A DNA stretch of 51,703 nt from Bacteroidales bacterium (GTDB taxonomy: Bacteria; Bacteroidota; Bacteroidia; Bacteroidales; P3), in NCBI GenBank assembly GCA_017443265.1, contig JAFSOU010000062.1:1-51703 (forward strand), given 5' to 3'. Position numbers and translations under genes: made by a program. This document shows positions 1,965 through 30,930 of this stretch, piece by piece. How positions within the stretch are numbered: position 1 is the first letter of the stretch; each line of letters begins with the position of its first letter. The notes below the pieces were generated by a model. That model made no database searches. It saw only the letters and a list, made by a program, of their open reading frames with translations, and had not been told where the DNA came from.

Positions 1965-3905
1965 TTATTTGTAGTTTCTCTGTTTTATTTCAATATCCTG
2001 ATATTCAAGCGGCTCTTTATAAAGCATCTCTTTTTCGCCTTTGCCGTTGTACCGCCATGCGGCAACGTACATATAATCGTTGTCGTTGCGCTGGGTCTCG
2101 CCGTCGGCGGTCTGGTGCTCTATGCGGAAATGTCCTCCGCACGACTCGTTGCGGTGCAGGGCGTCGGTGGCTATCAGCTTGGCAAGCTCGAAATAGTCGG
2201 CCAAACGCAATGCTTTTTCCAGCTCGGGATTCATCTGCTCGTTGGTGCCCGGCACAAGCACGTCGTTTTCAAACTCTTTCTGCAGCTCGTCGATGGCACC
2301 GAGGGCTTTTTCGAGGCTCTCGGCGGTGCGTCCCATGCCCACGTTTTCCCACATTATATGCCCCAGTTTGCGATGGAAATAGTCCACCGGCTTAGTGCCT
2401 TGCACGGCCAGCAGGTTGTTTATACGCAGCTTGACTTCGGTCTCGGCCTTGTCGAATTCAGTGGTGTCGGTGATGGGTTTGGCGGTATATATTTCGTCGG
2501 CCAGATAGTTCTGTATAGTGTATGGCAGCACAAAATATCCGTCGGAGAGTCCCTGCATCAGTGCCGATGCACCCAGTCGGTTGGCTCCGTGGTCGCTGAA
2601 ATTGGCCTCGCCAATGGCGAAAAGTCCGGGAATGGTGGTTTGCAACTCGTAGTCCACCCACAGCCCGCCCATGGTGTAGTGCACGGCGGGATAAATCATC
2701 ATGGGAGTTTCGTATGGATTATCGGCGGTTATCTTTTCGTACATCTGAAAGAGGTTGCCGGAGCGGGCTTCAACCACGTCTTTGCCAAGACGCTGTATTG
2801 CCGAAGCGAAATCGAGGTACACCGCAAGGCCTGTCTTGCCCACGCCATAGCCGGCGTCGCAGCGTTCTTTGGCGGCACGCGAGGCCACGTCCCTCGGCAC
2901 AAGGTTGCCGAAAGCGGGATAGCGGCGTTCCAGATAGTAGTCGCGGTCTTCCTCTTTTATGTCGGTGGGCTGCAGCTCGCCGGAGCGCAGTTTCTCCACG
3001 TCGGTTTTGTTTTTCGGTACCCAGATGCGTCCATCGTTGCGCAGACTCTCGCTCATCAGCGTCAGTTTCGATTGGTAGTCGCCCTTGACGGGGATGCAGG
3101 TGGGATGTATCTGCACGTAGCAGGGGTTGGCAAAATAGGCACCGTGCTTATGGCAGTTCCACGCTGCCGAAACGTTGGAGTTCATAGCGTTGGTGGAGAG
3201 GTAATACACGTTGCCGTAACCACCGGTGGCCAAAACCACGGCATGTGCTGCAAAACGTTCTATCTCTCCTGTAACGAGGTTGCGGGTGATAATGCCGCGG
3301 GCCTTGCCGTCGACAACCACGAGGTCGAGCATCTCGTGACGCTCGTGCAGGGTGACGGTTTTGCGGGCTATCTGACAGCTGAGGGCACCGTAGGCGCCGA
3401 GCAGGAGCTGCTGTCCCGTCTGTCCGCGGGCGTAGAAAGTGCGCGACACCTGTGCTCCGCCAAAGGAACGGTTGTCGAGGTAGCCGCTGTATTCGCGGGC
3501 AAAGGGAACGCCCTGTGCCACACATTGGTCTATAATGTCGGAGCTGACTTCGGCCAAGCGGTACACGTTGGCTTCGCGGGCACGGTAGTCGCCTCCTTTG
3601 ATGGTGTCGGTGAAAAGTCGCTGTACGCTGTCGCCGTCGTTCTGGTAGTTCTTGGCAGCGTTGATACCGCCCTGTGCGGCGATGGAGTGTGCGCGGCGAG
3701 GACTGTCGCTGATGCAGAAAATATCCACATTGAATCCCAGTGCGCCAAGCGATGCGGCAGCCGAGGCTCCGGCAAGTCCCGTGCCAACAACAATCACATT
3801 GAGCTTGCGTTTGTTGGCTGGATTGACAAGTTTCTGTTTGGCCTTGTAGTTGGTCCATTTCTCTGCCAAAGGGCCTTCGGGTATCTTAGAATCTAATTGT
3901 GCCAT
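1965..3905 (-). CDS. sdhA: Fumarate reductase/succinate dehydrogenase flavoprotein subunit
   Basis: The catalytic FAD subunit interconverting fumarate and succinate on the cytoplasmic face of the membrane. The 646 residues are the length of the Bacteroidetes form, longer than the enterobacterial SdhA. The FAD-binding start is [20 protein letters not shown] (about residues 40-59). [12 protein letters not shown] supplies the His expected to bind FAD covalently. HPTCIPV and [11 protein letters not shown] are substrate and FAD contact regions. Gene order is sdhC-sdhA-sdhB with gaps of 15 and 3 bases. The whole set follows rho by only 24 bases, so either it shares the rho transcript or its promoter lies inside rho. 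Confidence 0.96.
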
Positions 3906-12762: not shown

Positions 12763-12835
12763 AGCTTGTTATTATCTTAAATCGTTATTACTCAATATTT
12801 TACACATTACGGGCGTTTTTCGAGGGGTCAAAGCC

Positions 12836-13246
12836 TTATCTCTTTATTTTCACTCCTGTGGTGGTGATGCTTGCCACGACGGTGCCAACCGCATCGGTGA
12901 CAGAAATTTGGTAGTGGCACACGGTTTTGCCCTCTTTCACGGGCTTTGCCTCGGCAAAAAGGGTGTCGCCCTGTGGCTGTGCCACAAACACTATGTTGCT
13001 CACCGACGAAACGGTGTTCAGTTGGTCCATATTGGCGGCGATGGCAAAGGCGAAATCGGCCAGAGTGTATATTGCACCGCCCATCACAGCTCCCATGGCG
13101 TTGCGATGCCGAGCGTCGACCTGCAATTTGCACTTGGCGTAATGCACGTCGGCCTCAACAATCTCTATGCCAGTGGTTTGTGTAGCAAACAAATCTTTGC
13201 CGAAACGCTCGTTGGCTAGTTTCAAAAGTGTGTCGCTATCATTCAT
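12836..13246 (-). CDS. PaaI-type hotdog-fold thioesterase
   Basis: A small thioesterase of the PaaI/4HBT superfamily, probably acting on an aromatic or medium-chain acyl-CoA; the substrate is unknown. The ATG at 13246 gives 136 residues. It overlaps the dapA stop codon by 8 bases (ATG and TGA in the run GATGAATGATAG), which implies translational coupling. A frame beginning five codons earlier would need a TTG start and has no advantage. The central helix shows RHRNAMGAVMGGAIYTLAD, the PaaI signature with candidate catalytic Asn/Asp, followed by the strand SSVSNIVFVAQPQGDTLFAE. Confidence 0.85.
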   Translation of the reverse strand: MNDSDTLLKLANERFGKDLFATQTTGIEIVEADVHYAKCKLQVDARHRNAMGAVMGGAIYTLADFAFAIAANMDQLNTVSSVSNIVFVAQPQGDTLFAEAKPVKEGKTVCHYQISVTDAVGTVVASITTTGVKIKR

Positions 13247-28772: not shown

Positions 28773-29207
28773 TCAAAAGTAATTATTAAACTGGTGTGTG
28801 AAGTAAAACAAAAGGCAAACGGCAATAGCAATTACAAACGAAAGTATCAGATACAATGTTGAATGTTTCCAGAAGAGCCTTTTGTTGGCCATTGCATCGT
28901 CCAGAGCGTCGCTGTCGCGGTTGTTTATGGCTTTTTTGACCAAAATGCTGTAGGAGAACATGTTATAGGTTACCGCCACCATTAGCAGAAAGGGCACTAA
29001 AAGCAATAGCAAGGCTGTCAGTTCGATATAATTGAACTTTGGTTCGAGACTGAAAAACAACAACACCAAAACTACGACATTGGCAAACAATAACAGCGCA
29101 CTGACGCTGGCCATAAAAAGCACCCAGCCTGCAGTTTTCGACAGATGCCGTTCGGCTTGGGGTGTTACCACTATGTTTCTTTCCTGTGTTTCAAACTGTT
29201 GTTCCAT
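28773..29207 (-). CDS. Small membrane protein, paralogue A of a four-gene array (DUF5362-like)
   Basis: 144 residues, unknown function. A polar N-terminus (IVVTPQAERHLSKTAGW) leads into hydrophobic segments at about 27-52, 62-85 and 115-138. Before the last segment lies ILVKKAINNRDSDALDDAM. The pattern [polar head, A..L.K.AGW, hydrophobic, AI...D...L..A, hydrophobic] is shared with the next three genes upstream. It is the last gene of the leftward set and lies 16 bases after paralogue B. The family name is a resemblance, not a proven match. Confidence 0.65.
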   Translation of the reverse strand: MEQQFETQERNIVVTPQAERHLSKTAGWVLFMASVSALLLFANVVVLVLLFFSLEPKFNYIELTALLLLLVPFLLMVAVTYNMFSYSILVKKAINNRDSDALDDAMANKRLFWKHSTLYLILSFVIAIAVCLLFYFTHQFNNYF

Positions 29208-29223
29208 GGTTTTTCAAAATTAA

Positions 29224-29694
29224 TTAGCTGTTAGAAAGAATCAACCCAATAAGAATTCCCCAATATGCAACTGTGTACAAGATATAGATTATCAGCAAGA
29301 TACCTGCATATTTCGACAAGCCTTTCATATTCCGTGAGGCGTGCTCGAAACGTTCGCCGTCGCAGCTGTCGGCCGCAAGACGCGCGTTTTTCGAATGGCG
29401 GAAAAGGAATATCGCCGGGGCTATGGCGAGTGGCAACAGCACTATGAAGACAGGCAACAGATATAATCCCGTCATAACGACTGGCGGGATAATCATTACT
29501 ACCATCATCAGGGAGAGACAGAACATCAAAGGGACATAGAGGCACAGAAACACTATGCCTATTATGGCAAAGATGCGCGACCACTTAGCCGCTCCGGCCA
29601 AGCTCTCCACTCCCGCCTCGCTCAGCACAAGCGGTGTGGGATTTTCAGACGTGTTGGGTAATTCCATATCAGATTCAAGCATTATATTTTTCAT
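29224..29694 (-). CDS. Small membrane protein, paralogue B (DUF5362-like)
   Basis: 156 residues. The head contains PLVLSEAGVESLAGAAKWSR and is followed by FAIIGIVFLCLYVPLMFCLS and further hydrophobic segments. FRHSKNARLAADSCDGERFEHAS precedes the last segment, ILLIIYILYTVAYWGILIG. This gene is the closest of the four to my memory of DUF5362 (LSEAG..L...AKWSRIFAIIG). It is separated from paralogue C by 273 bases packed with hairpins and sits 16 bases before paralogue A. Confidence 0.68.
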   Translation of the reverse strand: MKNIMLESDMELPNTSENPTPLVLSEAGVESLAGAAKWSRIFAIIGIVFLCLYVPLMFCLSLMMVVMIIPPVVMTGLYLLPVFIVLLPLAIAPAIFLFRHSKNARLAADSCDGERFEHASRNMKGLSKYAGILLIIYILYTVAYWGILIGLILSNS

Positions 29695-29703
29695 TAATCT
29701 GTC

Positions 29704-29899
29704 GCCCTTTCAGGGCTCATCGGTTGTGGTTGTCCTTTATACAGGGGCTCACGCCCCCGCCTGTTGTCTTGAAATTCTCCGCTCCCTTTGGTCGCTATCG
29801 AAACTGCCACTGGCAGTTTCTTCACCCCTTCGGGGTTCATTTCTCCGCCCTCTGGGCTATCGAAAAGTCCACTGGACTTTTCTTCACACCTTCGGGGCT
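29704..29899. repeat. Cluster of short hairpins with a tandem 62-bp unit
   Basis: The hairpins are GCCCT-TTC-AGGGC (29704-29716), GGGGC-TCAC-GCCCC (29744-29757), GAAACTGCCA-C-TGGCAGTTTC (29800-29820), CCCC-TTC-GGGG (29825-29835), GCCC-TCT-GGGC (29847-29857) and GAAAAGTCCA-C-TGGACTTTTC (29862-29882). The stretch from about 29778 to 29899 is two diverged copies of one unit with period 62. They lie between paralogues C and B of the membrane-protein array. Confidence 0.8.
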
Positions 29900-29914
29900 T
29901 TTACTGAATACTGT

Positions 29915-29955
29915 CCTGTAATTTTTAATTGTAAATTGTCAATTGATAATTGTTA
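29915..29955. repeat. AT-rich TTAATTGTAAATTGTCAATT-type tract
   Basis: The units TTAATTGT, AAATTGTCAATTGATAATTG and TTAATTAT follow each other just downstream (in gene direction) of the paralogue C stop codon. They resemble the tracts at 25359-25406 and 38905-38985. Confidence 0.6.
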
Positions 29956-29967
29956 ATTATCCCGAAC

Positions 29968-30381
29968 TTATTCAACATAGAACTCCATTGTGAAGAGACT
30001 TCCCATGTACCACGCAAGGCAGATGATATTGCACAGGGTGTAAAGGAAATAAAACACGATGAAGCGATGCAGTTTGTCGATGGCATTGGTCAGAGTCTCG
30101 CCATCGCCGGTGCGTATTGCGTTGTTAACCAAACGTTTGAAGCGTACCGACAGCACCAAAGCGGCTATCGAGAAAGCGCACATCAGCAGAGCGGCCACAA
30201 ATAGGCTGGTACGGAAACCGACGGTGTGAGGGATGGTGAACAAGCTTATGACAATGGCAAACACCGAAAGCACGCACATCATCACGCTGAAAATGAGCGC
30301 CCAACGTCCTGCTTTTTTCAGATTGTTTGTAGCCTTGTCGTCCAATTCTATCGTATATTTCTGATTAGTAATTTCTTCCAT
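29968..30381 (-). CDS. Small membrane protein, paralogue C (DUF5362-like)
   Basis: 137 residues. The head TIELDDKATNNLKKAGRW is followed by ALIFSVMMCVLSVFAIVISL, a second segment LFVAALLMCAFSIAALVLS, then RLVNNAIRTGDGETLTNAID and a last segment FYFLYTLCNIICLAWYMG. The AGRW and AIRTGDGETL blocks align with paralogues A and B. It begins 12 bases after paralogue D ends. Function is unknown; a cytoplasmic N-terminus is likely. Confidence 0.65.
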   Translation of the reverse strand: MEEITNQKYTIELDDKATNNLKKAGRWALIFSVMMCVLSVFAIVISLFTIPHTVGFRTSLFVAALLMCAFSIAALVLSVRFKRLVNNAIRTGDGETLTNAIDKLHRFIVFYFLYTLCNIICLAWYMGSLFTMEFYVE

Positions 30382-30393
30382 AAGTCATAAGAT

Positions 30394-30930
30394 TTAATAG
30401 TTAAAAACTATGGTTGTGTCAGCGGAATTTATGCCCGTCACCACCAATATCATTGCCAAGAAAACCGCAACCATAATCACGATGCCGGAGACAAGAAAGA
30501 ATGTTTTGATGTGTCTTGCCGAGCGCAGCAGTGCTTTGGAATTGCCTTTGGACGTTTTTTTCGCCGCAACAGCAAAGCAGAACATAAACACCGCCGAAGG
30601 AACAAGCAGAATCGACGTCCAAAGCATAATAATGCCGGTCAATGCCAAAGTTAATGGCTCCATTTCGATGTCCAGCTCATTGTCCATCAAACTAGATAAG
30701 GGCACTGAAGAGTTACCGAACGCATAACCAATTAAATACATCAGCGCAATAAGTACGCACTGCGCTATGGCCGCACGGAGCATCGCCTTGCCCGCTTTGG
30801 CATAGTTATTCACAAAAGCCTGTCCAATGGTAAATTTCTGTGGCTGAGGCGGTTGACAAAACTGCTCGCTTGGCTGTTGTGGCGGCATTTCGGTTATCGT
30901 AGTAACCTCAAAATTTGTTTCTTCTTCCAT
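30394..30930 (-). CDS. Small membrane protein, paralogue D
   Basis: 178 residues, the most divergent member. A Gln/Pro-rich polar head (PPQQPSEQFCQPPQPQ) precedes FVNNYAKAGKAMLRAAIAQ, then segments at about 60-75, 95-125 and 148-170. The KKTSKGNSKALLRSARHIKT loop corresponds to the AI...D...L..A block of the others. It starts 26 bases after the sprA stop codon with no promoter visible between, so readthrough from sprA is likely. Membership of the same family is inferred from layout more than from identity. Confidence 0.55.
   Translation of the reverse strand: MEEETNFEVTTITEMPPQQPSEQFCQPPQPQKFTIGQAFVNNYAKAGKAMLRAAIAQCVLIALMYLIGYAFGNSSVPLSSLMDNELDIEMEPLTLALTGIIMLWTSILLVPSAVFMFCFAVAAKKTSKGNSKALLRSARHIKTFFLVSGIVIMVAVFLAMILVVTGINSADTTIVFNY

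Follow-up and report, generated by a model that had tools for sequence, protein, structure and literature searches.

Two tandem units in a mosaic of hairpins

How do the arms of two neighbouring palindromes come to differ in sequence and still pair, and what reads the fold that is kept? The question is raised by contig JAFSOU010000062.1 of assembly GCA_017443265.1 (51,703 nucleotides; this whole stretch is the window), from an uncultured gut bacterium of the Bacteroidales whose genome (G000) is 2.77 Mb and 99% complete. A sequence-only reading of the window had described tandem 62-bp units with compensating changes in their hairpin arms. Both hairpins were recovered, as CTATCGAAACTGCCACTGGCAGTTTCTTCAC at 29795–29825 and CTATCGAAAAGTCCACTGGACTTTTCTTCAC at 29857–29887 with 62 bp spacing, and the three bases altered on one arm between copy 1 and copy 2 are exactly compensated on the other. 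These are the only matches in the window to the pattern CTATCGAAA-N3-CCACTGG-N3-TTTCTTCA, for which the chance expectation is 0.

Alignment of copies sets the true unit borders at 29775–29824 (50 bp) and 29841–29886 (46 bp), so the 62-bp spacing comprises an element of 50 or 46 bp plus a remnant of a CCCCTTCGGGG-type hairpin. On the plus strand, copy 1 of this CTATC element consists of TTCTCCGC, hairpin A (GCTCCCTTTGGTCGC), TATC, hairpin B and TTCTTCA, and copy 2 of TTCTCC, hairpin A (GCCC TCT GGGC), TATC, hairpin B and TTCTTCA, with hairpin A of unequal length in the two (GCTCCCTTTGGTCGC versus GCCCTCTGGGC). Hairpin B, as placed by folding, occupies 29800–29820 in copy 1 (GAAACTGCC-ACT-GGCAGTTTC, with a stem of 9 bp and a loop of 3 nt) and 29862–29882 in copy 2 (GAAAAGTCC-ACT-GGACTTTTC). 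Folded as single-stranded DNA, the two units have z-scores of −4.1 and −4.9, and on either strand each unit forms two hairpins (z −4.0 to −5.7).

Around the pair, the window holds a regular mosaic of several palindromic motifs, as in a BIME: REP1, REP2, the CTATC element and a REP1 remnant, all annotated on the plus strand. A REP1-type hairpin, TGTCGCCCTTTCAGGGCTC, lies at 29700–29718 and is itself a dispersed repeat with 25 copies in the genome at ≤1 mismatch. It is followed by a REP2-type hairpin, TACAGGGGCTCACGCCCCCGCCTGTT, at 29740–29765, other copies of which hold a CTATC element in their loop; the dispersed hairpin at about 29740, TACAGGGGCTCACGCCCCCGCCTG, forms a mosaic with the window copies and TGTCGCCCTTTCAGGGCTC. 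The CCCCTTCGGGG remnant, which is REP1-like, separates the two units at 29825–29835; elsewhere, too, many copies of the element have this hairpin directly on their 3′ side. A second REP1-like remnant, CACCTTCGGGGCTT, follows at 29887–29900. Four neighbouring ORFs on the minus strand, encoding small membrane proteins of 144, 156, 137 and 178 aa, span 28773–30930, with the element pair between the second and third.

Copy number, distribution and turnover

Searching the genome for the pattern and counting agreement of its N3 blocks, as the earlier reading had advised, gave 62 copies at ≤2 mismatches and 65 at ≤3, with the strands about equally represented and pairing far above chance; a reversed-pattern control in the same genome gave 0 matches. 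Across aligned copies the borders are sharp, conservation falling off on the 5′ side of TTCTCC and on the 3′ side of TTCA. From 5′ to 3′ the unit, 42–50 bp in all, runs TTCTCCGC, hairpin A of varying length, CTATC, hairpin B (9 bp, loop ACT), TTCTTCA. Hairpin A changes length with its pairing kept (CCTTCGGG, ACTTCGTG, CTACGG, TTCG). CTATC (rarely CTGTC) stands before hairpin B and TTCTCC before hairpin A; read on the opposite strand, the preceding bases are TGAA for hairpin B and GATA for hairpin A. No GTAG/GGAG or CGTC tetranucleotide was found 5′ of the hairpin foot, which sets the element apart from the GTAG and CGTC REP superfamilies. Neighbouring copies form 7 tandem and 5 inverted pairs. 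A BIME-like mosaic recurs in another genus, in the arrays of genome G028 (period about 74 bp), where one locus has the motif order of the window and a 74-bp array of similar hairpins is interrupted by a CTATC element.

Of 190 genomes of the family, 39 have the pattern; they belong to 2 of its 12 genera, and copy number ranges from 0 to 66. No genome sampled from >100 other families of the order has it. Among the matches listed in a scan of named genomes, the carriers are uncultured Bacteroidales, most of which come from ruminants, deer and horses. In a close relative, G183, the genes flanking the window site are 95% identical and the orthologous gap holds unrelated sequence. Clean orthologous empty sites were sought and rejected, most orthologous gaps being too diverged for a precise junction. 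At about 12.8 kb of the window (about 12770–12840) lies a site without the element at which G182 and G183 carry one. The element is dispersed and extragenic, with covarying stems, fast turnover and restriction to one lineage.

G000 also carries another repeat of about 117 bp (GGGGACTTCTAATTTTACATTATTTCTGATTTCATAGTC...), 93–98% identical among several recurrences, at 360–2260 of the stretch C61:1–6000 (L254) and on contigs C38, C4, C14 and C106; a 2-kb part of C61 has it 3 times, flanked by small membrane or lipoprotein ORFs.

Stem pairing is conserved across variants

Covariation was measured on 62 distinct hairpin-B sequences from G000 and related genomes. Their stems have 92.1% Watson-Crick pairs, versus 16–45% when the 3′ partner is slid by 1–3 bases. 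Of the 248 pairs in the variable four-pair block 217 match, where 5,000 shuffles averaged 110 and reached at most 138, and 15 different fully paired 4-bp blocks occur. Two-sided changes are found at pair positions 9–12 and also at 5, 6 and 8. The earlier reading had offered copies whose N3 blocks do not pair as grounds for abandoning its claim. Some copies do have one or more mismatches, 26 of the 62 hairpins being incompletely paired in the variable block, but over the whole set pairing is far above the shuffles. As a palindromic repeat within 20–65 nt, in many extragenic copies and with stem pairing kept across variants, the CTATC element is a REP in the broad sense. Because REP subfamilies are known to retain pairing through complementary changes (PMC2817692, PMC3733652), the principle of the compensatory stem is already established and not new here.

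Either selection on a DNA hairpin or templated palindrome correction may lie behind such pairing, and the data fit both. Under quasi-palindrome correction, mutation and not selection keeps the arms paired, template switching between arms turning one-sided changes into two-sided ones. This predicts covariation without wobble bias, as seen: the stem cells that are not Watson-Crick comprise 7 G-T, 12 A-C and 25 others. It leaves dispersal and copy number unexplained, however; some one-mismatch variants (CAGC/GCGG and CGGC/GCAG) have multiplied uncorrected, and the pairing of hairpin A survives changes in its length. We consider it unlikely to be the explanation, although it is compatible with the one preferred below.

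Genomic context argues against an RNA element

Context was scored for 69 full-length copies drawn from fetched stretches, with simple home-made gene calls. Only 4 of the 69 fall within a called gene; each sits where an ORF begins, at its 5′ end, and these are likely due to start misprediction or chance; a coding origin of the repeats was rejected, since the copies are extragenic even though reading frames are present. The gaps that hold copies are codirectional in 31 cases, convergent in 12 and divergent in 5.

The earlier reading took conserved pairing as a sign of selection on structure, either as RNA or as a bound palindrome. The conserved pairing is statistically overwhelming; the RNA branch of that reading fared less well. 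A structured RNA or transcript-level element (a terminator, mRNA stabiliser or riboregulator) would account for covarying stems, the excess of convergent over divergent gaps points the same way, and the adjacent CCCCTTCGGGG hairpin receives a weak terminator-like call. The stems show no wobble preference on either strand, however, which argues against constraint as RNA. Within codirectional gaps 10 copies are sense and 21 antisense, neither position nor orientation relative to genes is fixed, and copies form both tandem and inverted clusters. Neither strand has a T-run after hairpin B (of 8 bases, 3.3 and 1.1 on average are T), and on this ground an intrinsic terminator was rejected. Membership of an RNA family was likewise rejected, as a search of Rfam gave no family match to the units and two chance-level hits, below gathering score, outside them. 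Selection of the hairpin as RNA is, on this evidence, distinctly unlikely.

Y1 transposases flanked by inverted hairpins

A REP-associated tyrosine transposase had been predicted, and six Y1 (PF01797) genes were indeed found in G000, mostly with the signature of another subclass instead of the canonical GTAG-REP type. The encoded proteins are about 150 aa long and carry [DN]H[IV]H, and Y-x3-Q-x2-HH is present in nearly all; one reads QKELH and one (L065) is truncated. In a 2018 survey, the Y-x3-Q-x2-HH motif defines TnpA_Y1 subclass 1.2, to which no REP or IS200 structures are given there (PMC6006769). By these motifs the present proteins fall in that subclass (PF01797, about 148 aa, HUH motif, Y-x3-Q-x2-HH). 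Their NCBIfam scores are near the IS200 cut-off and far under the REP-transposase cut-off, and the nearest solved structures, at a distance, are ISDra2-type transposases (ISDra2 TnpA 2xm3, E 6e-6, and relatives).

Many of the Y1 genes with this signature are arranged like REPtrons, that is, between inverted copies of one multicopy hairpin. The arrangement was found for two hairpins, TGCCGCCCCTACGGGGCTC and H1. The Y1 gene of G028:C113 has inverted TGCCGCCCCTACGGGGCTC on both sides, and TGCCGCCCCTACGGGGCTC has 144 copies in G028; at this locus (L251, G028:C113:81300–85700) the subclass-1.2-type gene, its inverted flanks and a 74-bp tandem array occupy positions 1970–3110. In a set of 30 clade-1 Y1 genes, H1 occurs in minus orientation within 200 bp upstream in 12 cases, in plus orientation downstream in 13 and in the other orientation in 3. 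H1 is a modest repeat: in 13 genomes its copy number runs from 0 to 16, and the copies often group near the gene. At the clade-1 loci (L274–L303) it reads CCACACT...GTGTGGKGTTA, inverted around the genes, and its loop contains an extra small stem with pairing-preserving changes of its own (GCACACCTACGGTGTTT, GCGCACTTCGTGTTT, GCGTCTTCCGACTT). The other Y1 genes of G000 (L060–L062 and L065) each have different flanking hairpin repeats, of GCCCCGAAGGGGC, GAGCCCTTCAGGCTC, GCGTGCCGTTGGCACGC and AAGTCCGAAGGACTT types. The query for another Y1-flanking hairpin, GTCGCCTNNCTCCGANNAGGC, was one base too long, and its 0 matches are uninformative.

Links between the element and Y1 genes

A CTATC element begins about 35–120 bp downstream of three Y1 genes, in the same orientation (G000:C23, G184:C16 and G028:C113). 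The three belong to three lineages, and a single cognate Y1 lineage was accordingly rejected. No Y1 gene was found with the CTATC element on both sides, so the REPtron arrangement does not extend to this element and its cognate enzyme is putative. Within g4, a large genus, clade-1 Y1 genes are present in 17 of 35 genomes with the element and 16 of 85 others (p = 0.0015), and other Y1 genes have no association with it (p = 1.0), both comparisons being uncontrolled for phylogeny. Four genomes (G008, G033, G068 and G069), two of them incomplete assemblies, have 4–15 copies of the element and no detected Y1 gene.

The element also sits inside other hairpins. Four loci of G000, the G184:C16 locus and several loci in each of G182 and G183 have it between H1-type arms, and the H1 hairpins that host it in their loop are of the type that flanks clade-1 Y1 genes. 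At further loci it occupies the loop of a GGGGGC/GCCCCC hairpin, with varying filler. Compared with shuffled flanks, loop insertion was counted 55 times where the arms are 5 bp or longer (mean 35 and maximum 50 in the shuffles) and 14 times where they are 6 bp or longer (versus 10); being only weakly above the shuffled flanks, insertion into hairpin loops was rejected as a global rule. REPs are known targets of IS elements (PMC1525189), and a position inside hairpin repeats at several loci would also suit a non-autonomous derivative of a DDE or IS110-type IS that targets REP hairpins (compare ISPpu9/10) and is no Y1 substrate. Against this, the element is a two-hairpin unit of 42–50 bp, its flank profiles lack terminal inverted repeats or target duplications, and no parent IS with these ends was seen in a search that was not systematic; we regard such a derivation as quite improbable. 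A chromosome-organising site, which a dimeric host protein would bind in duplex form, would fit perfect, extragenic palindromes but is highly improbable, as the half-site is free at 4 positions provided that they pair, which sequence-specific recognition of duplex DNA does not predict, and related genomes range from 0 to 66 copies.

A putative single-strand substrate

The CTATC element is best read as dispersed, extragenic and REP-like, set among the other hairpin repeats of a BIME-like mosaic. The stems of the element probably covary to keep a fold, most likely one used by an HUH/Y1 transposase: copies would have to remain foldable, as a hairpin of single-stranded DNA or as a cruciform, and this fold would be what the putative transposase binds and copies. 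Genomic context makes a Y1 transposase like those encoded here the candidate reader, because inverted multicopy hairpins flank Y1 genes, the element lies beside those hairpins or inside them, and it co-occurs with one Y1 clade. From the same context we infer that the element is most likely mobilised by a Y1 transposase. More tentatively, and with slightly less than even confidence, we suggest that subclass 1.2 Y1 proteins could be the transposases that process REPs in Bacteroidales, every one of them having an untagged hairpin family of its own, and that the CTATC element could be non-autonomous, spreading through these hairpins, and partly into their loops, by the same single-strand machinery.

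Comparison with known systems

The closest parallel is the proteobacterial REP/BIME system with its RAYT (TnpA_REP) proteins, which shares short dispersed extragenic palindromes with complementary subfamily changes (PMC2817692, PMC3733652), mosaic clusters and Y1 genes between inverted hairpin copies, although here those hairpins are other than the CTATC element, which was itself not found on both sides of a Y1 gene. The CTATC element further differs in having two hairpins per unit and no GTAG/GGAG or CGTC tag, and in being confined to one Bacteroidales family, and the Y1 genes here are of another subclass. These proteins resemble TnpA_Y1 subclass 1.2 (PMC6006769) in length (about 150 aa), [DN]H[IV]H, nearly universal Y-x3-Q-x2-HH, low copy number and occurrence in Bacteroidetes; unlike the subclass as surveyed there, many lie between inverted multicopy hairpins, and clade-1 proteins have WT, not WQ. 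Insertion into hairpin repeats recalls the IS elements that enter REPs (PMC1525189), whereas the CTATC element is non-coding and 42–50 bp long. REPINs (PMC3116915) are likewise non-autonomous palindromic repeats maintained in populations, but they are inverted REP doublets, and the CTATC element occurs as single two-hairpin units in mostly tandem clusters.

Within the searchable open literature, the element, its lineage and the REPtron-like context of subclass 1.2 appear to be new; the CTATC element is a real REP-like element of two hairpins, with strongly covarying stems, and has apparently not been described before. What is known of REP/RAYT biology comes mostly from Proteobacteria and is built on the GTAG tag. 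An element with two hairpins and no tag, together with the REPtron-like setting of subclass 1.2 in gut Bacteroidales, would bring a transposase group without an assigned substrate into single-strand palindrome mobilisation, and these genomes supply concrete pairs of protein and hairpin for cleavage assays.
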